Positions 48,116 to 64,000 of a stretch of 64,000 bases of DNA are shown here, piece by piece. The notes under the pieces were generated by a model. It searched no databases, was not told where the DNA came from, and saw only the letters and a list, made by a program, of their open reading frames with translations. Source of the DNA: Vibrio hannami (GTDB taxonomy: Bacteria; Pseudomonadota; Gammaproteobacteria; Enterobacterales; Vibrionaceae); NCBI RefSeq assembly GCF_029589055.1, contig NZ_JARQZP010000007.1:496001-560000 (forward strand), in the 5' to 3' direction. Position numbers and translations under genes: made by a program. Every line of letters begins with the position of its first letter. Position 1 is the stretch's first letter.

Positions 48116-49285
48116 ATGCTTGAGCTACTTTTCCTGTTGCTACCCATTGCAGCCGCTTATGGTTGGTATATGGGTAACCGTAGTGCGCGTCAGGATAAGC
48201 AGGAGCAGTCTCATCAGATATCCCGTCAGTATGTGACGGGTCTAAACCTTCTTTTGTCCGATCAATCGGATAAAGCGGTTGATCACTTCATTGAACTCCT
48301 TCAGGTTGATAATGAAACCATTGATACCCATTTAGCGCTGGGTAATTTGTTTCGTTCACGAGGTGAAGTTGATAGAGCCATTCGTATTCACCAGAACCTG
48401 ATTTCACGATCCGGTTTAACCATCGACCAGAAGAACCTCGCACTGCAACAGTTGGCGAAGGACTATATGGTCTCTGGCTTTTTAGATCGCGCAGAAAAGA
48501 TCTTTGAACAGCTCGTGGATGAGCCCTCCCACAAAGAAGCTGCACTAACGCAACTAGTCGCCATTTATCAACAGACCCGTGAGTGGAGCAAGGCGATTTA
48601 TTACGGGAATGCGCTAGTGAAATTAGGGCGCAAACGTATGAAAGCCAATATTGCACATTTCTGGTGTGAAATGGCAATGCAAGAACAAAGAGAGCAGAAT
48701 GTCTCAAAGGCTATTCAGTACTTTAAGCGAGCTCTTTCAGAAGACCCTAAATGTGTTCGGGCAAGCATCTCTCTTGGTAAGATGTACCTTGAAAATGAGG
48801 ACTACAAAAGCACCATCAAGTATATGGAAATGGTGCTAGAACAAGATATAGATTTTATTGCCGAAGTATTGCCGACCATCGCTGAGTGCTATCACCATTT
48901 AGGACAAGAACAGCAGCTGGTAGAGTTTTTGAGAGCTAGTATCTCAGCTGGTGCTGGGGTGTCTGCTGAACTTATGCTTGCCCAGATGGTGGCGCATCAT
49001 GAAGGAACGGCTTCAGCTCAGACCCTGCTAACACGCCAGCTTTTGAAAAACCCTACAATGAAAGGGTTCCATCGCCTTATGGATTACCACCTTGCGGAAG
49101 CTGAGGAAGGCCGAGCGAAAGATAGTTTGACTACACTTCAGGCGATGGTTGGTGAACAAATAAAAGTAAAACCACATCATCGATGTCGAAAATGTGGTTT
49201 TTCAACCCATTCACTCTATTGGCATTGCCCTTCCTGTAAAGGGTGGGGAACGATAAAGCCAATTCGTGGATTGGATGGGGAGTAA
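48116..49285 (+). CDS. lapB: LapB (YciM), TPR/rubredoxin regulator of LPS synthesis
   Basis: 389 aa. An N-terminal membrane anchor (MLELLFLLLPIAAAYGWYMG), a string of TPR repeats (about 40-320), and a C-terminal rubredoxin-like CRKCGFSTHSLYWHCPSCKG with two CxxC pairs (about 357-375). LapB stimulates FtsH-mediated degradation of LpxC. Confidence 0.95.
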   Translation: MLELLFLLLPIAAAYGWYMGNRSARQDKQEQSHQISRQYVTGLNLLLSDQSDKAVDHFIELLQVDNETIDTHLALGNLFRSRGEVDRAIRIHQNLISRSGLTIDQKNLALQQLAKDYMVSGFLDRAEKIFEQLVDEPSHKEAALTQLVAIYQQTREWSKAIYYGNALVKLGRKRMKANIAHFWCEMAMQEQREQNVSKAIQYFKRALSEDPKCVRASISLGKMYLENEDYKSTIKYMEMVLEQDIDFIAEVLPTIAECYHHLGQEQQLVEFLRASISAGAGVSAELMLAQMVAHHEGTASAQTLLTRQLLKNPTMKGFHRLMDYHLAEAEEGRAKDSLTTLQAMVGEQIKVKPHHRCRKCGFSTHSLYWHCPSCKGWGTIKPIRGLDGE

Positions 49286-49307
49286 TTTTTAGCTATTTCT
49301 ATCATTT

Positions 49308-49428
49308 GTCATCCCCGCGAAGGCGGGGATCTAGGTTAGTTTGTAGAAATAACTTCAGTTAATATATTTTTATTTCAGGTTTTGTAAGTAGATTCCAGCC
49401 TGTGCAGGCGCACGGCTAGTGGAATGAC
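49308..49428. repeat. REPIN-like palindromic pair, family 2, copy 1
   Basis: Left arm GTC-ATCCCCGC-GAAG-GCGGGGAT-CT (perfect 8-bp stem, 49311-49330); right arm starting AGATTCCA and ending TGGAATGAC (49390-49428), inverted relative to the left. It fills most of the lapB-pyrF gap. Confidence 0.75.
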
Positions 49429-49464
49429 GTGAATTTGGGTTTTATTAGAATTTTAGGAGAGAAA

Positions 49465-50160
49465 ATGCTGGATCAAAAAGTAATAGTAGCACTGGATTAC
49501 GACAATCAGGCGGATGCGCTTGCGTTTGTTGACCGAATCGATCCTGCTTCTTGTCGCCTGAAAGTGGGTAAAGAGATGTTTACCTTGTTTGGCCCTGAGT
49601 TTGTGAAGGAACTTCATAAACGAGGCTTCTCGGTATTTCTGGATCTTAAGTTCCACGATATTCCAAATACCTGTTCAAAAGCGGTAAGAGCTGCTACAGA
49701 GTTAGGTGTATGGATGGTGAACGTACACGCTAGTGGTGGCGAAAAGATGATGCGTGCGTCGCGTGAGATACTCGAACCGTATGGTAAAGATCGTCCGCTA
49801 TTGATTGGCGTAACAGTGCTTACCAGTATGGAACAAAACGATCTTGCGGGCATTGGCCTGGATATGGCACCTCAGGATCAGGTAATGCGACTTGCAACAC
49901 TTACTAGGAATAGTGGTCTTGATGGGGTTGTATGCTCTGCTCAGGAGTCTTCGATGCTAAAAACAAGCTTGGGTCAGGATTTTAAACTAATAACACCGGG
50001 AATTCGCCCTGCTGGCAGCGCTGCTGGTGACCAGAAGCGTATTATGACTCCGGTAGAAGCTGTGAATGCAGGCTCTGATTATCTGGTTATTGGTCGCCCG
50101 ATAACTCAGGCAGCAGATCCTGCAGCGGTATTGGCGGAGATTAATAAAACTCTAGGTTAA
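49465..50160 (+). CDS. pyrF: PyrF, orotidine-5'-phosphate decarboxylase
   Basis: Last step of UMP synthesis. 231 aa from the ATG at 49465 (TAGGAGAG upstream): [14 protein letters not shown], the catalytic [12 protein letters not shown] (about 60-71), [20 protein letters not shown] and [12 protein letters not shown]. All active-site motifs intact. Confidence 0.96.
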
Positions 50161-50164
50161 AGAG

Positions 50165-50321
50165 CAAAGGTTACAGGTTACCGGACGGGCTTCGCCTTAC
50201 AGGCAACAGGGAAAACAAAAGCGTGAAGGTTTGCCTATCACGCTTTTTTCATATTTCTCATCCTGTGTCACTTGTCACTTGTCACTTGTCACTTGTCACC
50301 TGTCACCTGTCACCTGTCACC
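50165..50321 (+). repeat. Composite repeat: GGTTACAG block, terminator, eight TGTCACY heptamers
   Basis: Related to the element after sohB: AAAGGTTACAG, GGGC-TTC-GCC hairpin, TACAGGCAA, then a bidirectional terminator AAAAGCGTGA (50217-50226) / TCACGCTTTT (50238-50247). Next come four TGTCACT (50266-50293) and four TGTCACC (50294-50321) heptamers. The last base lies in the stop codon of miaE. Confidence 0.8.
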
Positions 50322-51091
50322 TAAACTGGAATCCCACTATGGAACTTAAAATCATCATCTGGTGATAAAATAAGCTCAGCTTCTATTTTTCCAAAGTAAG
50401 TAACTCTTTCTGAAATATCTTCACCAGCTATCTGCTCTGCCAACTCCAGATAATCCTTATAATGTCTTGCTTCTGAACGGAGCAGAGAAACATAAAATCT
50501 GGCAATATCGTCATCCATATGGGGAGCCAGTTTAGCGAAACGCTCGCAGGAACGAGCTTCTATAAATGCTCCAATAATCAACTTGTCGACCAGCGCACCT
50601 GGCTCATAGGTTCTCATATTACTAATCAGGCCTTTTGCATATCGTCCCGCAGTGATATTTTCATATGGAATACCCCGGTCTTCCATAATTTCCAACACCT
50701 GATAAAAATGATGTAGCTCTTCTTTGATTAGCAATACCATCTTATCGATAAGATCCCGGCTATAAGGAGAGTCTGCTTTCGCGATGATTGATTTGGAGAT
50801 ATTACTTTTTCCCTTCAGTGTCTCTAATGAACCAGCCTGTCGGTATGCAAAATCCTCGTAAGGCTTAAACCAGTCAAGCAACGCTGCAGCGCTACTGGGT
50901 TCTACGGCATATTTGCGAATGAGATACATGGCTGATTGACCTGCTTTCAGCTCACACATCAAATGATCGACTAAAACAGTCTTTAAGTTTTCAGGTTTCT
51001 TAGCTTCGATTATCCATTTATCGGGAGTAGCACACTGTAGAAACTGGTTTATCGGCTCGAGAAGGCTTTGGTATTCAGAAAGTATATTCAT
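50321..51091 (-). CDS. miaE: MiaE, tRNA 2-methylthio-N6-isopentenyladenosine hydroxylase
   Basis: Adds a hydroxyl to ms2i6A37 in tRNAs. A 256-aa diiron protein: iron ligands in KEELHHFYQVLEIM (about 122-136), GAFIEARSCERFAKL (about 175-190) and SLLRSEARHYKDYLEL. The stop codon abuts a heptamer tandem array. Confidence 0.92.
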   Translation of the reverse strand: MNILSEYQSLLEPINQFLQCATPDKWIIEAKKPENLKTVLVDHLMCELKAGQSAMYLIRKYAVEPSSAAALLDWFKPYEDFAYRQAGSLETLKGKSNISKSIIAKADSPYSRDLIDKMVLLIKEELHHFYQVLEIMEDRGIPYENITAGRYAKGLISNMRTYEPGALVDKLIIGAFIEARSCERFAKLAPHMDDDIARFYVSLLRSEARHYKDYLELAEQIAGEDISERVTYFGKIEAELILSPDDDFKFHSGIPV

Positions 51092-51161
51092 AGTAAGAGT
51101 CTGGTTTTATACAAAAAGGGCCGCATAAAGCGACCCTGGAGTTGATTTTATAGATAAGTAC

Positions 51162-51926
51162 TTACCATTTTTTCTTTTCGCCAAAAAGCGCTTCCATATC
51201 GCTATTACGCTCTTGCTCTTCCATAGCTAACAGGTCTTCAGCATTTTGATCTTTCTTATTTTGTTCTAGTTTATCAAGCATCCCCTGAAGCTTTTCTCGC
51301 GCCTGATTAGAATAAGAGTCATTTTTAGGCGCCAGAGCGTCGAGCCCTTTCTTAAGTAGTTGACGTGCAGTACCTACCTGATTACGCATTACCGCTTCGT
51401 TTGCACGTTTGATAACGTTCTCGATATTAATTCGGATCTGGATAGTTTCTAAACGGGCGTTCTCGGTTACATAAGATTGTGTATTGAAACGACCTTTATT
51501 GTGTTCGCTGCGAATAGTGTCGCGGAGTCTCTTAACCAGTTTAAGCATTATTATCGCTTGTTTATCACTGGTTGGAACTTTAAAAGATGTACTTTCGCCG
51601 CCGCTATAATTTTCTTTAAGCTGCTGAACCTGATTCTTCATATTTTCTCTACGCTGAGCTAGCTGGCGGTTTTTCGGATCCAGCTCACACATGGCATCCA
51701 GAGCATCAAGAATACGTTGGTTCAGGCAGACAAGTAGCTCCTGGCTAAATGGAAGGTGGTGAGCGTTACCAATAAGATCTTCCGTTGCATCTATGATGGC
51801 AATGTAGCGTGCAGACTCTTGTTTTCTTGCTGACTCAACCTTAGTGCGGTACTGAAGCATGACGTTATAGCCGATCACCAGAACGAGAAGTACAGCAACA
51901 AGAATTATAATTAAACCAATATTCAC
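51162..51926 (-). CDS. Membrane-anchored coiled-coil protein of unknown function
   Basis: I prefer the GTG at 51926 (254 aa, starting MNIGLIIILVAVLLVLVIGY) over the in-frame ATG at 51965, because GGATG lies just upstream and the protein then starts with its membrane helix (about 3-22). The rest is mostly helical and highly charged, with long heptad-like stretches (RLRDTIRSEHNKGRF, ARQLLKKGLDALAPKN, REKLQGMLDKLEQNKK) and an acidic/basic tail ending EALFGEKKKW. No catalytic motif is seen. Function unknown; conserved position between miaE and cysB. Confidence 0.75.
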   Translation of the reverse strand: MNIGLIIILVAVLLVLVIGYNVMLQYRTKVESARKQESARYIAIIDATEDLIGNAHHLPFSQELLVCLNQRILDALDAMCELDPKNRQLAQRRENMKNQVQQLKENYSGGESTSFKVPTSDKQAIIMLKLVKRLRDTIRSEHNKGRFNTQSYVTENARLETIQIRINIENVIKRANEAVMRNQVGTARQLLKKGLDALAPKNDSYSNQAREKLQGMLDKLEQNKKDQNAEDLLAMEEQERNSDMEALFGEKKKW

Positions 51927-52083
51927 AAAGTTACATCCAAATAAGTGTTTACAATTGGGCGTCAAATAGAATACACCAAACTTGCGTATTCAGCACATCA
52001 TTATCAATGTTGATATTCGACAACGTAACGAAAAACGCAGAATAGTTATAAATTCTGTGTGTTTGGTTACAAAACTAGCATAG

Positions 52084-53175
<1,092 letters not shown>

Positions 53176-53231
53176 TTTTCTTCCTTTCCGAAATCCTTCT
53201 CCTTAGAATGGCGACAAACTAAGGGGAAGGT

Positions 53232-54425
53232 ATGTTATCCAGATTTTCACAACTCGACTCACTGTTAACCCAGTGCCAGAATTATTGGCGAATAGAGCCT
53301 TTTCAACTGAGTAGTAAAGATACTCTTCCCTGGAACGATTCGAATAACGAGCTTGTAGAGTGGCTGGAAAAACTTTCACCTGAACAGGTTGTTGCTTACA
53401 AGGCCGATACAAAAAGCCTGATACATGCCATTTCGCTGTTTCTCCCTTTTATAAGTGAGCTTGAAGAGCTTATAAAATTGCCAGAAGAAAAGATAAACGA
53501 ACTCCAACTTGAAAGAGGCCTGGATACTGGTATACCTGGCCGAAAACTGACACAAATAGTATCAATGGGTACTTGTTCTTTGCAGCATCACGTTGGTGAC
53601 GAATGGTTAGAATGGTGTTCTGGAAAGGGGTATCTAGGGCGAATTTTAGCGGCTAAGTCAGGCGAAAAAGTTACAAGCCTAGAGTGGCAGAATGAACTTT
53701 GTATTTCTGGTCAACAAGAAGCCGATACACGCCATTTGCCGATGGAGTTTGTACAGGGGGATGCCTTTTCTCCTGAGGTGGAACTGCTATTTAAACCAAA
53801 TCAACATGCTGTAGCTCTGCATGCTTGTGGTGATTTGCATGTTCAACTGATTCGTCGTGCTACCGAGCATCATCTAAAAGGAATCACTATATCTCCATGT
53901 TGTTACCACCTTATCCGTGATGATTTATATCAACCGCTTTCTGAGCCAGCAAAACAGTCGACGTTGAAATTTAGTAAGTCGGAACTGAGAATACCTTTGC
54001 AGGAAACAGTGACTGGCGGAGAAAGGGTCAAAAAGCACCGTGAGCTTGAAATGAGCTACAGGTTAGGATTGGACTTATTGTTAACCTTGGAAACAGGCTC
54101 CAAGGAATACGTCTCTATTCCAAGTGTTAAAAAGTCCGAACTTGCTAATGGCTTTGAATATTTCTGTCGTTGGGCTGCTGAGAAAAAGGGCTTGTGTTTA
54201 CCTGAGGTTGATTTGGAATTCTGGTGTCAGAAAGGGATAGAGCGTTTCTGGAAAATGGAAAAAATCAGTTTAGTTCAACAGGTTTTCAGAAGGCCGCTGG
54301 AAATATGGTTAGCTTTAGACCGGGCACTATATCTGGAAGAGAAAGGGTATAAGGTGTCAGTGTCTACGTTCTGTGAGAAAAGCGTAACGCCGAGGAATAT
54401 TTTGATTCACGGGGGCAGGATTTAG
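53232..54425 (+). CDS. SAM-dependent methyltransferase, uncharacterised
   Basis: 397 aa. The middle holds a Rossmann methyltransferase domain: WLEWCSGKGYLGRILAAKSG (about 128-147, glycine-rich SAM loop), VTSLEWQNELC, VALHACGDLHVQLIRRATEH (about 195-214) and a metal- or substrate-like SPCCYH motif. This resembles the Methyltransf_25/GSTCD type of Vibrio and Shewanella proteins. Target unknown. It is preceded by AGGGGAAGG. Confidence 0.8.
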   Translation: MLSRFSQLDSLLTQCQNYWRIEPFQLSSKDTLPWNDSNNELVEWLEKLSPEQVVAYKADTKSLIHAISLFLPFISELEELIKLPEEKINELQLERGLDTGIPGRKLTQIVSMGTCSLQHHVGDEWLEWCSGKGYLGRILAAKSGEKVTSLEWQNELCISGQQEADTRHLPMEFVQGDAFSPEVELLFKPNQHAVALHACGDLHVQLIRRATEHHLKGITISPCCYHLIRDDLYQPLSEPAKQSTLKFSKSELRIPLQETVTGGERVKKHRELEMSYRLGLDLLLTLETGSKEYVSIPSVKKSELANGFEYFCRWAAEKKGLCLPEVDLEFWCQKGIERFWKMEKISLVQQVFRRPLEIWLALDRALYLEEKGYKVSVSTFCEKSVTPRNILIHGGRI

Positions 54426-54504
54426 GTTACAGGAAAGAAAAAAGCGTGGAGGTTTGCCCCTCACGCTTTTTGCATATTTATCACTGTAACCTGTAACCTG
54501 TAAC
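54426..54504. repeat. Composite repeat: GGTTACAGG, terminator, CTGTAAC x3
   Basis: TTAGGTTACAGG, terminator stem AAAAAGCGTG (54439-54448) / CACGCTTTTT (54462-54471), then three exact CTGTAAC heptamers (54484-54504) just before the ald stop. Smallest of the three terminator-bearing copies. Confidence 0.78.
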
Positions 54505-54505
54505 C

Positions 54506-55630
54506 TTAGTTAAACATCGCAATTGCTGTTTCAGGCTCAACGTATTCAAGGTCAAAACCTTCAGCAACCTCTTTGCATGTCACTTTACCGTGAATCACAT
54601 TCAGGCCAGCCAGGAATCCTTGATCTTCAAGAAGCGCTTCTCTGTAACCTTTATTGGCAAGTTTAATGATGTATGGCAGCGTTGCATTATTTAGAGCAAA
54701 AGTAGAAGTTCTGGCTACGGCGCCTGGCATATTGGCCACGCAGTAGTGAACAACATCATCAACAATGTATGTTGGATCCGCGTGTGTTGTTGCATGAGAA
54801 GTCTCGAAACAGCCACCCTGGTCGATTGCTACATCAACAATCGCTGCGCCCGGTTTCATCTTCTTAATATGCTCTTTAGTCACCAATTTAGGCGCTGCTG
54901 CACCAGGGATAAGAACCGCACCTACTACTAAATCGGCTTCAAGAACATGCTTCTCTAGTGCATCCTCGGTAGAGAATACTACTTTCGCGCGTCCCTGGAA
55001 CTCTTCATCCAGAGCTCTCAGTGTATTGATGTTCCTATCCAGAATAGTGACATCTGCTCGCATGCCTACCGCCATTCTTGCCGCATTAGAACCGACGACA
55101 CCACCACCAACAACAACGACCTTAGCTGGTTCAACACCAGGCACACCACCTAGAAGAAGACCACGTCCACCGTGAGATTTCTCCAAAGTTTGAGCTCCAG
55201 CCTGAATAGACATGCGTCCTGCGACTTCAGACATTGGCGCTAATAGTGGAAGATGACCCGCATTATCTGTTACAGTCTCATATGCTATACAGATGGCTTT
55301 ACTCTTGATAAGCTCATCTGTCTGTGGAAAATCTGGTGCAAGGTGTAAATAGGTGAACAATATTTGCCCTTCACGGAGCATGGCACGCTCAACAGATTGA
55401 GGTTCTTTAACCTTTACAATCATGTCTGCTTTGGCAAATACGTCTGAAGCAGTTGGAAGAATGGATGCACCCACTGCGACGTAATCGTCGTCAGAAAAGC
55501 CGATGCCCGCCCCTGCATTGGTTTCAACAAAGACTTGGTGTCCATGAGAGGTAAGCTCTCTCACGCTGGCTGGAATCATACCAACACGATATTCGTGGTT
55601 TTTGATTTCTTTAGGTACGCCAATGATCAT
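54506..55630 (-). CDS. ald: Ald, alanine dehydrogenase
   Basis: NAD-dependent interconversion of alanine and pyruvate. 374 aa: MIIGVPKEIKNHEYRVGMIP with the pyruvate-binding Arg, VKVKEPQ (catalytic Lys), HLAPDFPQT, NAD-binding VVVVGGGVVGSNAARMAVGM, and DVAIDQGGCFETSHATTHAD. Divergent from lrp, whose product is its likely regulator. Confidence 0.95.
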   Translation of the reverse strand: MIIGVPKEIKNHEYRVGMIPASVRELTSHGHQVFVETNAGAGIGFSDDDYVAVGASILPTASDVFAKADMIVKVKEPQSVERAMLREGQILFTYLHLAPDFPQTDELIKSKAICIAYETVTDNAGHLPLLAPMSEVAGRMSIQAGAQTLEKSHGGRGLLLGGVPGVEPAKVVVVGGGVVGSNAARMAVGMRADVTILDRNINTLRALDEEFQGRAKVVFSTEDALEKHVLEADLVVGAVLIPGAAAPKLVTKEHIKKMKPGAAIVDVAIDQGGCFETSHATTHADPTYIVDDVVHYCVANMPGAVARTSTFALNNATLPYIIKLANKGYREALLEDQGFLAGLNVIHGKVTCKEVAEGFDLEYVEPETAIAMFN

Positions 55631-55786
55631 CCTGACTCCTTAATATTTATTGGTTGTATTAACTGTTTGTAGGGCATTTTGTTAGAGATATTAGCTAGTA
55701 TATAAATCAAATGGGAAAATTTGATTCTGAATATTAATAAATTGTAGTATATATTTTTGCAAGGAAGTATTAAGGTGGAATAAAAA

Positions 55787-56281
55787 ATGGCAGACAACTA
55801 CAAAAAACCGTCTAAGGAACTTGATCGAATCGATCGAAATATTTTAAATGAGCTACAGAAAGACGGACGTATTTCGAATGTTGAACTGTCTAAGCGCGTG
55901 GGGCTTTCGCCTACACCTTGCTTGGAACGTGTTCGCCGTTTGGAGCGTCAGGGATACATTACGGGCTATACCGCACTGTTAAATCCTCAATATCTGGATG
56001 CATCATTGCTTGTGTTCGTTGAGATAACATTGAACCGTGGCGCACCTGATGTATTTGAGCAATTTAATACAGCAGTGCAGAAATTGGATGATATTCAGGA
56101 GTGTCATCTTGTATCAGGTGATTTTGACTATCTTCTTAAAACCCGAGTATCTGATATGAGTGCATATCGTAAACTGCTTGGTGACACACTTCTACGTCTA
56201 CCTGGTGTAAATGACACACGTACTTATGTAGTAATGGAAGAAGTTAAACAGACCAACCAACTGGTTATCAAAACAAGATAG
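55787..56281 (+). CDS. lrp: Lrp, leucine-responsive regulatory protein
   Basis: Global regulator of amino-acid metabolism. 164 aa: helix-turn-helix NVELSKRVGLSPTPCLERVR (about 35-55) and a RAM ligand domain with VFVEITLNRGAPDVFEQF and CHLVSGDFDYLLKTRV. Nearly identical in form to E. coli Lrp. It is divergent from ald over a 156-bp AT-rich region. Confidence 0.96.
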   Translation: MADNYKKPSKELDRIDRNILNELQKDGRISNVELSKRVGLSPTPCLERVRRLERQGYITGYTALLNPQYLDASLLVFVEITLNRGAPDVFEQFNTAVQKLDDIQECHLVSGDFDYLLKTRVSDMSAYRKLLGDTLLRLPGVNDTRTYVVMEEVKQTNQLVIKTR

Positions 56282-56374
56282 CAGTAAATAAAGTCAAAAC
56301 CCTGTCAATTGTTGTCCTGGTTGCGCGGTCTTCAGTTGTTTACTTACTGGGTTTTGGCTTTAATTGGGGTAAAT

Positions 56375-56405
56375 CGAGCGGCTTTGGCCGCTCGGACTGT
56401 TTTTA
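56375..56405 (+). terminator. Rho-independent terminator of lrp
   Basis: CGAGCGGC (56375-56382) pairs with GCCGCTCG (56387-56394), loop TTTG, then GACTGTTTTTA. Confidence 0.88.
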
Positions 56406-56471
56406 TGCTCATTCCATTGTCGAGTTATGAGACTCGGCAACGGAATTAGTATTACAAAATCAGAAAATGAT

Positions 56472-59279
56472 ATGTTCAAAGAGAACAAAGAAAAAATTAC
56501 AACTATTCTTAAGACGTCTGAAGATGAAAGCAGCTTAAACCTCAATGGATTCCAGAGGCTTAGAGAGTTTGGTTTTATCTTTGGCGTACTCATCTCACTG
56601 TTTCTCGCTATAGCACTCTACAGTTTCGACCCGGCAGATCCGTCCTGGTCACAGACATCCTGGGGTGGTGAAGTAAAGAATGCTGGTGGCACCTTTGGTG
56701 CATGGCTGGCCGATACCCTGTTTTTTACCTTTGGTATTCTCGCTTTTATTTTGCCTGCAGTGATTGCCATCATTGGCTATGGGTTGTTTCGAAACCGGAC
56801 AGAAAACGATCCTCTGGACTTGATGTTATGGGGAACGCGTCTGCTTGGTTTATCCATCATGGTTCTTACCAGCTGCGGTCTTGCGGACATTAACTTTGAT
56901 GATATCTGGTACTTTTCTTCAGGCGGTATCGTCGGAGATGTATTGACCAGCTTTACGCTTCCCACATTAAGTGTGCTTGGAACAACACTTGTACTTCTGT
57001 TTCTTTGGGGAGCGAGTCTAACACTACTTACAGGTATTTCGTGGTTGTCTATTGTAGAGTGGCTTGGAAGCATGGCAATTTCGTTTGTTACAGGCGTTCT
57101 GAACCGAGTGCGTGGCAATAAGACCGAAAAGCTTCAAGCTAATACGGACGCTGCGAGTTATACCGATGATGAGAGTGATTCAGAGTTTCATTTCGAGAAA
57201 AAAATCGTAGAGACGCCGGAAAAAAAACCAGAGCCAGCTTCTCGATACAATATTCACATTCCACCATCCGCAGCAGAAGCTGAGCCTCAACAGATGGACG
57301 AGCAGGTTGATGAAGTGCGAGGTGAAGAACTTATTGAAGAGATGGATCCAGGTATTAAGCTTCATTCTACAATAGAAGAACTGGAATCTGTTGCGACTCA
57401 CCATCACGATGCCAGCCATCATGAAACTGTTGAGCATCGGGTAATAGAACCAGTGACACAGGGCTCATCTGAACCGCTGATTGAATCTGAGCCGGAAGAG
57501 CTACAGCAACCAGCCTTTTCGATGGAAGCGCTTGATGAAATCTATCAGGAAGAACAACAGACAGGTGCTTCTGAGCCAGAGGTAACGAATCTTGATGCAA
57601 TAGTAGAAACTACGATGGCAGAAGAAGAGCTCCCCGAAGTCGAAGACATGGCTCAGGCAGAACAAGCCGCGCATTCAGACCCCGATGTAGAGGCGTTTCA
57701 GAATATTGTTCAGGAAGCCCAGAAGAACATGGCTGCTCAGGAGAATCCATTCCTGATGAAGAAGGAGGAGTCGTTGCCGGTGCCAACGTCTCCGATGCCG
57801 ACGCTTGAACTGCTGTATCATCCGGAAAAACGAGAAAATCATATCGACAGAGCCGCTCTTGAAGAGATAGCAAGGTTGGTTGAATCTAAGCTGGCTGACT
57901 ACAAAATTACTGCTCAGGTTGTCGGTATCTTCCCAGGGCCAGTAATTACCCGTTTTGAGCTGGATTTGGCACCAGGTGTCAAAGTAAGCCGAATCTCAAG
58001 CCTTTCAATGGATTTAGCGCGCTCGTTGTCTGCGATGGCGGTTCGTGTGGTTGAAGTTATTCCAGGCAAGCCATACGTTGGCCTGGAGCTACCAAATATG
58101 AGTCGCCAAACAGTATTCTTCTCTGACGTGGTAGGCAGCAAACAGTTCCAGGAAGCAACGTCGCCTACAACAGTAGTGATGGGACAGGATATCGCTGGTG
58201 AAGCCGTGATTGCTGACATCGCTAAGATGCCACACGTACTGGTTGCCGGTACAACAGGTTCCGGTAAGTCGGTTGGTGTTAACGTGATGATTCTGAGCAT
58301 GCTCTACAAAGCGAAACCAGAAGATCTGCGCTTTATCATGATCGACCCTAAGATGCTTGAACTATCCATCTATGAAGGCATACCGCACCTACTTGCTGAA
58401 GTGGTTACTGATATGAAGGATGCTTCCAACGCTCTGCGTTGGTGTGTCGGAGAGATGGAGCGTCGCTATAAGCTGATGTCAGCACTGGGTGTGCGGAATG
58501 TGAAGGGCTTTAACGACAAGCTGAAAATGGCGGCAGACGCAGGTCATCCAATTCACGATCCACTTTGGCAACCGGGCGATAGCATGGATCAGGAGCCGCC
58601 ACTACTTGAAAAACTTCCTTATATTGTCGTTGTAGTCGATGAATTTGCCGACCTGATGATGGTGGTTGGTAAAAAAGTAGAAGAGCTTATCGCCCGTTTG
58701 GCACAAAAGGCACGAGCTGCGGGTATTCACCTTATTCTTGCAACGCAGCGTCCGTCTGTGGATGTTATTACTGGCTTGATTAAGGCGAATATACCGACGC
58801 GTGTGGCATTCACTGTATCAACTAAAACCGATTCCCGAACCATTCTGGATCAGGGTGGTGCAGAGTCGCTACTCGGTATGGGTGATATGCTTTATCTTCC
58901 TCCTGGCTCAAGCCATACCATTCGTGTTCACGGTGCGTTTGCATCAGATGATGATGTTCATGCGGTGGTGAATGACTGGAAGGCGCGTGGTAAACCTCAG
59001 TATATCGATGAAATCACCAATGGCGAGCAGAGTCCGGAAATGTTACTTCCGGGTGAAACGATGGAGTCTGATGAGGATGTTGATCCATTGTTCGACCAGG
59101 TAGTAGAACATGTGGTAGAGACCCGCCGAGGTTCTGTCTCTGGTGTACAGAGACGATTTAAGATTGGCTATAACCGCGCGGCACGTATTGTTGAGCAACT
59201 TGAAGCTCAGGGTATTGTAAGTGCACCAGGGCATAATGGTAACCGTGAAGTGTTAGCGCCTGCACCGCTTAAGGATTAG
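56472..59279 (+). CDS. ftsK: FtsK, DNA translocase of the divisome
   Basis: Anchors at the septum and pumps chromosome ends to dif. About 935 aa from the ATG at 56472 (an ATG at 56427 would give 950 aa; neither has a strong ribosome site). Four membrane helices at about 25-190, an acidic Glu/Gln-rich linker to about 420, then the motor with Walker [20 protein letters not shown], Walker [37 protein letters not shown], and a C-terminal gamma winged helix ([20 protein letters not shown]) that reads KOPS and activates XerD. Confidence 0.95.
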
Positions 59280-59282
59280 ATT

Positions 59283-59316
59283 GGGTTACGGGTTACGGGT
59301 TACGGGTACGGGTTAC
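59283..59316. repeat. GGGTTAC heptamer array downstream of ftsK
   Basis: Three exact GGGTTAC units (59283-59303), a shortened GGGTAC (59304-59309) and a fourth GGGTTAC (59310-59316), followed by AGG and directly by a family-1 palindromic pair. It is the reverse complement type of the array after sohB, without a terminator stem. Confidence 0.8.
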
Positions 59317-59321
59317 AGGTT

Positions 59322-59443
59322 TTCTCGTTCCCACGCTCCTGCGTGGTAATGCATACCTGAGTTCAAGCAGTCTGATAAATAATGTGTTGTGTAGTTTGTT
59401 TCTGCCAGGGCACGCATTCCCTCGGGGACAGTGGGAACGAGAA
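59322..59443. repeat. REPIN-like palindromic pair, family 1, upstream of lolA
   Basis: Left arm TTCTCGTTCCCACGCTCCTG / CGTGGTAATGCATACC (59322-59357); right arm CACGCATTCCCTCGGGGACA / GTGGGAACGAGAA (59411-59443), in inverse orientation. Each arm can fold on itself, and the two arms can also pair. Confidence 0.8.
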
Positions 59444-59510
59444 CTGTGTGCGGAACTTGAACTAAAGATACGGGTCTAGTAAAGAGTCCCTGTTGTTAAA
59501 GAGAATTTAA

Positions 59511-60110
59511 ATGAAAAAACTTTTATTTGTTTTGCTGGCAGTAAGCTTCACTGCATTTGCTACTCCACAGGAAGAGCTTAGCGAACGTTTGACGAAAACG
59601 GATGGGTTTAGTGCTAACTTTTCTCAAAAGGTAATCAGTCCGGAAAATGAACTGATTATGGAGGGTGAAGGTACCGTTGAAATAGCAAGACCGAGCCTGT
59701 TTAGGTGGACAACAGTCATGCCGGATGAAAATGTTCTGGTATCGGATGGTAAGACGCTTTGGTATTACAGTCCGTTTATTGAACAGGTAACCATATACTG
59801 GCAAGAGCAAGCAACAGCTCAGACGCCATTTGTATTGCTGACTCGCAACCGTGCTAGTGACTGGGATAACTACAATGTGACCCAGGAAGGCGATAAGTTT
59901 ACTCTAACGCCGACTGCAACTGATTCGACTCAAGGACAGTTTGTTGTTGAGATTGACGATGGTGGTGTTGTTAAAGGTTTTACGGTGATAGAGCAGGACG
60001 GTCAGCAGGGGCAGTTTGTGTTTGATGAATTCAGCTCAAAGGTTCCAGCAGCAGATAGATTTACGTTTATTGTTCCTCAGGGAGTTGAGGTTGACGATCA
60101 GCGTAATTAG
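59511..60110 (+). CDS. lolA: LolA, periplasmic lipoprotein carrier
   Basis: Shuttles lipoproteins from LolCDE to LolB. 199 aa with signal peptide residues 1-17 ([17 protein letters not shown]), then [40 protein letters not shown] and [14 protein letters not shown], typical of LolA. It is bordered by palindromic pairs on both sides. Confidence 0.95.
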
Positions 60111-60122
60111 AGCTCCAATCCT

Positions 60123-60217
60123 CCCTCGTTCCCACGGTCTCCGTGGGAATGCAGATCTGACTAAAGACGATTGATTCAAGCACGATATGCATTCCAACGC
60201 TGAAGCATTGGAACGAG
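60123..60217. repeat. REPIN-like palindromic pair, family 1, downstream of lolA
   Basis: Left arm CTCGTTCCCACGGTCTCCGT / GGGAATGCA (60123-60151); right arm TATGCATTCCAACGCTGAAG / CATTGGAACGAGAA (60184-60217). A further degenerate arm (TTGTTCTCAGACCTTAATGG / GAATGCA) follows at about 60236-60262. Confidence 0.8.
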
Positions 60218-60277
60218 AAGTTTAAATAATCTAATCTTGTTCTCAGACCTTAATGGGAATGCAAATAGGGACAAATT

Positions 60278-61627
60278 TTGTCAAATTACACCTTAGACTT
60301 CGCTTCCGATGAAGATTTCCGTCCTCTAGCTGCTCGTATGCGACCGGAGACGGTAGAACAGTACATCGGGCAGCAGCATATCCTCGGAGAAGGCAAACCG
60401 CTTCGCAGAGCGTTAGAGGCGGGACAGATTCACTCGATGATTCTTTGGGGGCCTCCGGGTACGGGCAAAACGACGCTGGCGGAAGTGGCGGCGAACTATG
60501 CCAATGCCGAAGTTGAGCGAGTCTCTGCGGTTACATCTGGTGTGAAAGATATTCGTGCGGCAATCGAGAAAGCGCGAGAGAACAAGCTTGCTGGCCGACG
60601 TACTATCCTATTTGTGGATGAGGTGCATCGCTTTAACAAGAGCCAGCAGGATGCATTCTTACCCCATATCGAAGATGGCACGGTTACCTTTATCGGTGCG
60701 ACGACTGAAAACCCTTCTTTTGAACTCAATAACGCACTTTTGTCACGCGCCCGTGTTTACAAGCTTACCTCCCTGAACACACAGGATATTCTTCTAGTAA
60801 TAAACCAGGCGGTTTCCGAACAGGAAAGAGGGCTTGGAAATGTGAAGGCACATTTTGCAGATAACGTGCTAGACAGGTTAGCCGAGCTGGTCAATGGTGA
60901 CGCCAGGATGTCTCTGAACTACCTTGAGCTGCTTTATGATATGGCAGAAGAGGATGCTGACGGCGTTAAGCAGATAACCTTACCATTGCTGGCGGAAGTA
61001 GCTGGTGAGAAGGTATCGCGCTTTGATAACAAAGGGGATATTTGGTACGACCTGATCTCGGCGGTTCATAAGTCGATTCGTGGTTCAGATCCAGATGCTG
61101 CCCTGTATTGGTCTGCCCGAATGATTACTGCAGGCTGCGATCCGCTTTATATCGCCCGTCGTTTACTGGCTATCGCATCTGAGGATGTAGGTAATGCTGA
61201 CCCGAGAGCGATGCAGGTGGCTTTGTCTGCATGGGATTGTTTTACCAGAGTTGGCCCAGCTGAAGGGGTGAGGGCGATTGCCCAGGCTGTGGTATATTTA
61301 GCTTGTGCTCCAAAGAGCAATGCAGTCTATACAGCCTGGAAGCAGGCTTTGACGGATGCTCGCGAGCAACCTGAGTATGAAGTTCCTCATCATTTGAGAA
61401 ATGCGCCTACGAGTCTGATGCAAGATATGGGCTACGGAGCGGAGTATCGATATGCGCATGATGAACCTGGTGCTTACGCTGCTGGAGAAAACTATTTTCC
61501 ACCTGAAATGGCACAAACCCGTTACTATTTTCCAACAAATCGGGGTTTGGAGACGAAAATTAACGAAAAGTTAGATTATCTTGCCTCATTGGATGCAAAA
61601 AGCCTGCAAAAGCGCTATGAAAAGTAG
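60278..61627 (+). CDS. rarA: RarA (MgsA), replication-associated AAA+ ATPase
   Basis: Clamp-loader-like ATPase acting at stalled forks. 449 aa from a TTG at 60278 behind AGGGA. N-terminal [20 protein letters not shown], Walker [17 protein letters not shown] (about 53-68), Walker [21 protein letters not shown], sensor [20 protein letters not shown] and C-terminal tetramerisation region. Order lolA-rarA-serS is conserved in gammaproteobacteria. Confidence 0.95.
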
Positions 61628-63197: not shown

Positions 63198-63232
63198 CAG
63201 GGCCTGGCTAGATTAGTCGGGCCTTATTTATT
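63198..63232 (+). terminator. Terminator-like hairpin after serS
   Basis: CAGGGCCTGGCTA and TAGTCGGGCCTT form an imperfect stem followed by ATTTATTTTT. It lies between serS and the arsenate-type fusion gene. Confidence 0.6.
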
Positions 63233-63245
63233 TTTAGTGGAATAA

Positions 63246-64000
63246 ATGGTGAGAAAGATTCTATTTTTATGTACAGGTAACTCCGCTCGTTCTCAGTTAG
63301 CTGAAGGTTTGTTTAACCGTATGGCGAAGGGTAACTTTACTGCAGCGAGTGCTGGAACACGTCCCGATGAAGTTGACCCAAGAGTTGTTGAGGTACTTAC
63401 TGAGCATGGTATTGATGCCAGCGCTCTGAGAAGTAAATCGACTCAAGAGTTTGAAGGCCAGACATTTGATTTTGTGATAACGCTATGTGAGCGTGCTAAA
63501 GATGAATGTGGTGTATTTGATGAACAAGGCGATCAGATTCACTGGGACTTTGCAGATCCTAGGGATGCTACAGGCAAAGAGGCGTTCGAAGAGGTTTATA
63601 GAGGGCTAGAAGAGAGAATTTCTCTGTTTCTGTTACTAAATGGTCATCAAGTTGAAGGCGTGTTTGCACCAACTGCTTTTTTTAAAGTAATGAGTGACCC
63701 GCTTCGTCTAAAAATCATTATGTTGCTCGAAGATGAAACAGTGCTGAGTGTATCGGACCTTACCGAGGCACTGGGAGAGAGCCAGCCGAAGGTGTCACGT
63801 CATCTGGCGTTGCTGAGGGATAGTGGCTTCTTACAGGATGAGCGAGATGGCCTGTGGATTTTCTACCGTTTATCTGATCATCTTCCGCTATGGATTAAGC
63901 ATACGCTTCAAACGGTTCGAAATGGTAATCCTGGGATTATTAACCACGAGAAGCATCAGCTTAAACTAGCTGAGCGGAAGAGGCGTTATAAAGGGAAATA
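63246..64000 (+). CDS. Arsenate reductase (LMW-phosphatase type) fused to ArsR-type regulator; stop codon cut by window edge
   Basis: From the ATG at 63246 the frame is open for 251 codons and ends TA at the window edge, so the protein is probably complete. Residues about 1-135 are a low-molecular-weight phosphatase/arsenate reductase domain: P-loop LFLCTGNSARSQLAEGLFNR, two further Cys in TLCERAKDECGVF spaced as the resolving pair of thioredoxin-coupled ArsC, and HWDFADPRDATG. Residues about 142-225 are an ArsR winged helix (FFKVMSDPLRLKIIMLLEDE, SQPKVSRHLALLRDSGFLQD). The usual ELCVCD metal site is replaced by LSVSDL. Start alternative GTG at 63249. Confidence 0.85.
   Translation, partial: MVRKILFLCTGNSARSQLAEGLFNRMAKGNFTAASAGTRPDEVDPRVVEVLTEHGIDASALRSKSTQEFEGQTFDFVITLCERAKDECGVFDEQGDQIHWDFADPRDATGKEAFEEVYRGLEERISLFLLLNGHQVEGVFAPTAFFKVMSDPLRLKIIMLLEDETVLSVSDLTEALGESQPKVSRHLALLRDSGFLQDERDGLWIFYRLSDHLPLWIKHTLQTVRNGNPGIINHEKHQLKLAERKRRYKGK

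Follow-up and report, generated by a model that had tools for sequence, protein, structure and literature searches.

An ArsC–ArsR fusion between serS and bioA

The window, that is the whole stretch of 64,000 nucleotides of Vibrio hannami DNA analysed here, ends inside a gene whose 251-residue product joins an arsenate reductase (ArsC) domain of the LMW-PTP type to an ArsR-type repressor. The gene is found at 63246..64000 of the forward strand, on which the domains and motifs below also lie. Its reading frame is open at the window edge and was completed with the adjoining genome sequence (L007, 2247-3002), where the last base of the stop codon is 64001, just one position outside the window.

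Pfam places an LMWPc, or ArsC-like, domain at residues 5-128 (63258..63629, corresponding to the genome match C7:559258-559629; 83.4 bits for a cut-off of 23.2, domain E-value 2.4e-23) and an ArsR-type winged helix, HTH_5 (PF01022), at residues 151-196 (63696..63833; 48.6 bits for a cut-off of 22, domain E-value 7.2e-13). As originally predicted, an arsenate reductase and a repressor thus share a single uninterrupted chain, with a short linker at about residues 129-141 between them. The winged-helix model NF033788 scores 81.5 bits, above its cut-off of 55, which confirms an ArsR/SmtB winged helix. In the AlphaFold2 model (mean pLDDT 84.8, pTM 0.57) confidence is low only in the linker (about 60, residues 131-140) and the tail (38-59). 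Both domains are well modelled; their mutual position is modelled poorly, given the pTM and the weak linker confidence.

The P-loop, CTGNSAR, spans C9 to R15 (63270..63290); C9, N12, R15 and S16 are found in all 57 proteins first aligned, and so is the resolving pair C81 and C88, within LCERAKDEC (63486..63509). A D104-P105 motif follows at 63555..63560, its proline present in 57/57 and its aspartate in 37/57, relatives such as L048 and L053 being without the latter; the Asp of such a DP motif is the general acid, a role that D104 may hold here. The N-terminal half therefore carries the complete catalytic and resolving cysteines claimed for it, C9, C81 and C88, together with R15. These are the only cysteines of the protein, its winged helix being cysteine-free. 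In E. coli ArsR, C32 and C34 serve the arsenite site. The alignment puts a degenerate version of this motif at residues 167-172 (63744..63761), LSVSDL in place of LCVCDL: where ArsR has ELCVCD the fusion reads VLSVSD, CVC having become SVS with Ser168 and Ser170, so that the lack of ELCVCD was also rightly called.

The best PDB fold matches are arsenate reductases, the first of them Deinococcus ArsC2 (8p5n), crystallised with arsenate. With this protein and the pI258-type enzymes (1jf8, 1ljl) the TM-score reaches 0.87-0.90 by target length, and the C-x5-R loop (C9, R15), the resolving pair and the DP motif are shared; in pI258 ArsC the resolving cysteines are C82 and C89. Unlike these enzymes, the domain is fused to a repressor and remains below the cut-offs of TIGR02691 (90.4 versus 174.3 bits) and PRK13530 (75.3 versus 215 bits). 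For the winged helix the closest NCBIfam model is PRK10141, the E. coli-type, As(III)-responsive ArsR; its score of 92.6 bits lies below the cut-off of 97, and here the equivalents of C32 and C34 are Ser168 and Ser170.

The gene stands between serS upstream and a convergent bioA downstream. NCBIfam recognises no arsenic family among the 20 neighbouring ORFs scanned, so the fusion is a local orphan. Around and downstream of it these ORFs encode SerS, BioA, BioB, BioF, BioC, BioD, HtpX and an SDR oxidoreductase, two of the ten matching nothing at the limit used; the ten upstream (48116-61627) include LapB, PyrF, MiaE, CysB, alanine dehydrogenase, Lrp, LolA and a RarA-type ATPase, again with two unmatched. 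The arsenic transporters or methylases that were to be looked for downstream are not among these neighbours. Just past the window (L007:5519-8210) bioF and bioD code for 350 and 160 residues, compared with 397 and 227 in L039; frameshifts or assembly errors are possible.

A terminator-like hairpin with a T-rich tail follows serS (63199..63225, forward strand), one of two such sites in a terminator scan for which shuffled sequence leads one to expect 0.9; this hairpin makes separate transcription of the fusion gene probable. The promoter scan found no sigma-70-like promoter. Across its start codon, at 63226..63247 and without strand, an inverted-repeat comparison detected the AT-rich repeat ATTTATT-N8-AATAAAT. 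It has the N8 spacing of the relatives' operator described below and overlaps the tail of the serS terminator; it is missing upstream of the three serS-context orthologues, and we take it as a lead only.

Relatives, their gene contexts and a shared operator

Full-length matches (E<1e-80) occur in 69 of the family's 329 genomes; the window's genus accounts for 31 of them, a sister genus, g9, for 37, and one lies elsewhere. Together with the two domain E-values, this recurrence means that the fusion is not a product of chance. We fetched all 31 fusions of the window's genus and 24 of the 37 of g9. A match of 60% is found in Vibrio campbellii. Outside the family the distribution is patchy: at E<=1e-40 the class sample of 369 genomes adds just one, whereas samples of the phylum, the order and a Pseudomonas-like family hold more matches, some of which cover the ArsC part only. 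A single-protein scan of the whole collection relied on overly specific peptide patterns and therefore returned one match, the winged helix of a Tissierellales MAG. In L190, L231, L232 and L233 and on Pseudomonas plasmids (hits H2-H4, H6 and H7), arsC and arsR are neighbouring but unfused genes, with an intact CVC; this is a likely state before fusion.

Among the first 57 aligned fusions, 24 are co-directional with varH, gapdh and arsJ genes (including L129, from outside the family) and 12 divergent from them. Four lie beside pyk with arsR in the locus, six beside an MFS gene, four between serS and bioA, two beside a GGDEF gene, two in pst operons and three in other settings. In the sister genus the fusion stands at the head of varH-gapdh-arsJ arsenate-efflux operons, 23 of the 24 fetched genes pointing in the direction of the operon. 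In L044, L051 and L091 it is the immediate divergent neighbour of gapdh-varH-arsJ, and no standalone arsR intervenes. Two pstS-pstC-pstA-pstB operons end in an ArsC–ArsR fusion, L049:6834-11581, where the pst families were named, and L053:7866-12441, where they were assigned by similarity. The six MFS-context loci (L041, L042, L094, L095, L096 and L098) pair the fusion with a divergent MFS_1 transporter gene of unassigned substrate; for L041, which was tested, NCBIfam does not call this Pfam MFS_1 protein ArsJ. An arsenate- or phosphate-type signal, as had been suggested, is thus backed by relatives in arsJ and pst operons, and by nothing at the locus itself.

We searched 35 genomes with the standalone ArsR of V. 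hannami at a threshold of E<=1e-12. In genus g9 the fusion is the sole match in 21 of 22 genomes that carry it, these having no standalone ArsR (the exception, G149, has two), and at least one standalone ArsR is present in 9/9 tested g9 genomes that lack the fusion. The g9 fusion occupies the place that arsR has in V. cholerae. From this replacement we infer that it does the work of ArsR there.

The relatives' promoters yielded a 6-N8-6 operator, TATATR-N8-YATATA, whose copies we then counted. Across 59 Vibrionaceae-type loci, the 250 bp upstream of the gene contain an exact copy for 12 of 13 arsR genes, 20 of 58 fusion genes, 8 of 40 gapdh genes and one of two pstS genes, versus 1 of 604 other genes; at one mismatch, 35/58 fusion genes have it. 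In the same type of loci the N8 spacing gave 49 matches, N7 and N9 one each and N4 none; N12 gave ten, a control that tells against the operator. Arms scrambled in three ways gave 0, 0 and 3. Since the motif came from some of the same promoters, only the loci fetched later, from other families, are a fresh test: there 11/57 fusions have an exact copy versus 4/548 other genes, and 36/57 versus 19/548 have one at one mismatch (one of these loci, L188, had previously been seen as L129). At the pstS promoter of L053 an exact copy is found at -99 with one-mismatch copies nearby, and the best copies at the L049 pstS promoter have two mismatches; neither pst fusion has the operator at the fusion gene itself. 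The fusion promoter carries it in 0/6 MFS-context and 0/4 serS-context loci, the present gene included, and no conserved inverted repeat is shared upstream of the fusions of these two contexts. The window holds no copy within one mismatch. The original prediction named two findings that together would refute it, downstream genes foreign to arsenic and DNA binding indifferent to oxyanions; the first is what we see, the neighbours being serS and bio genes, and the relatives' operator is absent at the gene's own promoter.

Two candidate sensor sites and an arsenate-input reading

Two sites were followed across 114 fusions: the ArsC site, defined as C9, R15, C81 and C88, and the arsenite motif CVC. 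Dropped before counting were L054-L056 (own-genome context), L129 (which repeats L188) and L227 (cut by a contig end); L190, L231, L232 and L233 are separate arsC and arsR frames, and L191 is an ArsC part without a winged helix. The ArsC site alone is kept by 72 fusions, both sites by 37, CVC alone by 5 and neither by none (Fisher p 0.006, uncorrected for kinship). A later stop-to-stop check added L202, L214 and L235 with both sites intact, bringing the counts to 72, 40, 5 and 0 of 117.

Overall the ArsC site is intact in 109 and CVC in 42 of the 114 fusions, the four ArsC residues being present in all 57 of the first round. The 56 Vibrionaceae rows keep the ArsC site in 56/56 and CVC in 0/56; in the other 58 rows CVC is found 42 and the ArsC site 53 times. 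All five fusions with a broken ArsC site (L186, L187, L220, L226 and L230) retain CVC, and three of them have acr3 nearby and no arsJ-type gene. Judged from these alignments, the pattern is suggestive of two alternative sensor sites of which at least one must stay. On the tree, in which many forks are weak and branches long, CVC status changes only five times and the ArsC site four times, and an independent-pairs test on these changes has no power.

Erosion of CVC is not peculiar to fusions. Of 32 standalone ArsRs examined, 24 have lost at least one of the two CVC cysteines although they carry no ArsC domain, and of the eight with an intact CVC, four come from outside the family. The standalone Vibrio-type ArsRs of L024-L037 and L133 have CVC eroded to CVA, CVG, CVN, SVG or SVN, which suggests a general trend in arsJ operons towards losing the arsenite site. 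Because of these 24 proteins and of V. cholerae VC1068, reportedly eroded as well, CVC loss by itself does not point to the ArsC domain.

With relatives in arsJ and pst operons, complete cysteines and the arsenite motif gone, the protein is best read as taking an arsenate/phosphate-type input through its ArsC domain. We propose, with a probability of roughly one half (0.52), that the fusion is a one-component repressor, acting in trans, in which the ArsC domain is the arsenate input of the ArsR winged helix. Its computed base comprises the architecture, the conserved sites, the gene linkage, the replacement of ArsR in relatives and the operator. From these we infer arsenate as the ligand, a redox step, derepression and the target in trans.

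In this proposal, a thioredoxin-type arsenate reductase domain would have come to serve an ArsR winged helix as its input. The P-loop would take up arsenate, or a compound closely similar to it, for reaction with C9. The C9 adduct, or the subsequent C9-C81-C88 disulfide cascade, may then alter the ArsC domain, and the change would pass through the short linker so that the ArsR dimer releases its operator, which in relatives is TATATR-N8-YATATA ahead of the arsenate-efflux operon. Enzyme turnover could thereby be coupled to DNA binding. What favours the ArsC domain as the input is that the oxyanion loop and the cysteine triad are kept in 56/56 Vibrionaceae fusions, 20 of them without the general acid.

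It is also conceivable, with a lower probability, that the protein is a bifunctional enzyme and plain repressor, whose ArsC half reduces arsenate while the ArsR half answers a different signal. Candidates are 1-arseno-3-phosphoglycerate, arsenite bound at another site, or a further ligand in the winged helix, one that standalone CVC-less ArsRs use too. The 24 standalone proteins that lost CVC without gaining an ArsC domain agree with this, as does the present fusion, which retains D104 along with its cysteines, and the unfused arsC and arsR neighbours of Pseudomonas plasmids, L190 and L231-L233 suggest that the fusion may be no more than a joined gene pair. Against it, 20/56 Vibrionaceae fusions have lost Asp104 with all three cysteines kept, which fits sensing better than turnover. 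In addition, making arsenite would be counterproductive in arsenate-exporting arsJ operons unless acr3 is present, and acr3 lies within seven ORFs of 11/72 CVC-less versus 29/42 CVC-bearing fusions, a nearness that changes 22 times on the tree.

The triad, invariant even where the Asp is lost, would suit a redox or thiol-stress switch in which C81-C88 senses peroxide or the thioredoxin state and not arsenate. HlyU and BigR, which sense thiols or sulfur species, are among the PDB relatives of the winged-helix profile. We find such a switch improbable: thiol-based sensors of the ArsR family keep their cysteines in the winged helix, which has none here; a disulfide switch has no need of R15 and the rest of the P-loop, which serve to bind oxyanions, yet these are as well conserved as the cysteines; and the linkage is to arsJ and pst.

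A known system close to the arsenate-input reading is the var operon of V. cholerae, which is reported to be induced by As(V) with no As(III) made; its authors think that ArsR probably senses As(V), and state as open how an arsJ operon is induced by arsenate without arsenite (PMC9601151). This ArsR, VC1068, is reported to have lost one CVC cysteine by a C-to-A change (PMC9601151), and it resembles the fusion in its related winged helix, its related operator and operon and its eroded CVC. It differs in having no ArsC domain and in heading its operon, whereas the fusion is an orphan. Since an ArsR without an ArsC domain answers arsenate in vivo in V. cholerae, the signal could be carried by the winged helix itself, by a partner or by a metabolite like 1-arseno-3-phosphoglycerate.

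ArsR–ArsC fusions are already in print, among them Leptospirillum ferriphilum ArsRC, proteins of Microbacterium and Sinorhizobium, and the Actinobacteria clusters C4 and C7 (PMC6514093, PMC4443643). They, too, unite an arsenate reductase with an ArsR repressor in a single polypeptide; their names suggest ArsR first, and in the protein here ArsC is N-terminal. The form here appears to be new: its arsenite cysteines are gone and its relatives are tied to arsJ and pst. Among the open-licence papers found on ArsR fusions or arsenate sensing, none describes an ArsC-domain arsenate-sensing repressor in its title or abstract, judged for most by the beginning of the abstract.

The Vibrionaceae branch of the ArsC–ArsR family is, going by its sequences, best read as arsenate-input repressors. 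More tentatively, the family as a whole might be one of direct As(V) sensors, in which the arsenite site decayed in arsenate exporters and the ArsC site near acr3, and which was also wired to pstSCAB. If true, this would illustrate clearly how an enzyme can become a sensor while its two competing sensor sites decay, each in branches of its own; a pst-wired sensor would let an arsenate-exposed cell adjust its phosphate importer. The fusion, which carries an arsenate-binding enzyme domain and replaces ArsR in the sister operons, is a protein in which a single active-site mutation would suffice to probe direct sensing of arsenate. A possible use is as an arsenate-specific biosensor part; the existing ArsR biosensor parts are known as arsenite sensors.

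The orphan gene and the other arsenic genes of its genome

The V. hannami fusion is not encoded in or beside gapdh-varH-arsJ, as some of its relatives are. Contig C6 of the same genome carries an arsR-gapdh-varH-arsJ operon, whose ArsR retains CVC and is 50% identical to the fusion over query residues 2-89. This distant operon is, in our view, the likeliest trans target of the orphan. It has a close version of the operator, TATATTCGCATATCCGTATA (C6:27695-27714), two arm letters off the pattern.

Exact operators are found at 1, 3, 3 and 1 forward-strand places in this and three orthologous genomes, versus 1 each for the reversed control. The copy in V. hannami, at C3:883055, was rejected as an arsenic target, the ORFs around it reading as no arsenic gene. 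For the longer var operator at up to three mismatches, matches equal the reversed control except for the var operon itself.

The operator missing at the gene's own promoter in 4/4 serS-context loci, the absence of arsenic neighbours and the separate ArsR that the genome keeps for its var operon would all be expected if, in the serS-bioA lineage, the gene had drifted to a non-arsenic target or were on its way out. This we consider quite improbable. Four genomes retain the serS-fusion-bioA order along with both domains (the two in A1 at 66-72% identity), and none of the catalytic residues has changed; the protein is therefore under selection.

The arsenate-input repressor proposed here would in any case not be the sole arsenic regulator of its genome, because of the CVC-bearing ArsR on the var operon and of E. 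coli-type ArsC homologues, which the genome also encodes. LMWPc matches number six. Contig C4 holds an arsR/arsC/arsB set in which ArsB is in pieces: at L054:11453-12629 these lie in different ORFs near the arsC and arsR matches, and as the contig is full of short ORFs, they reflect decay or poor sequence.
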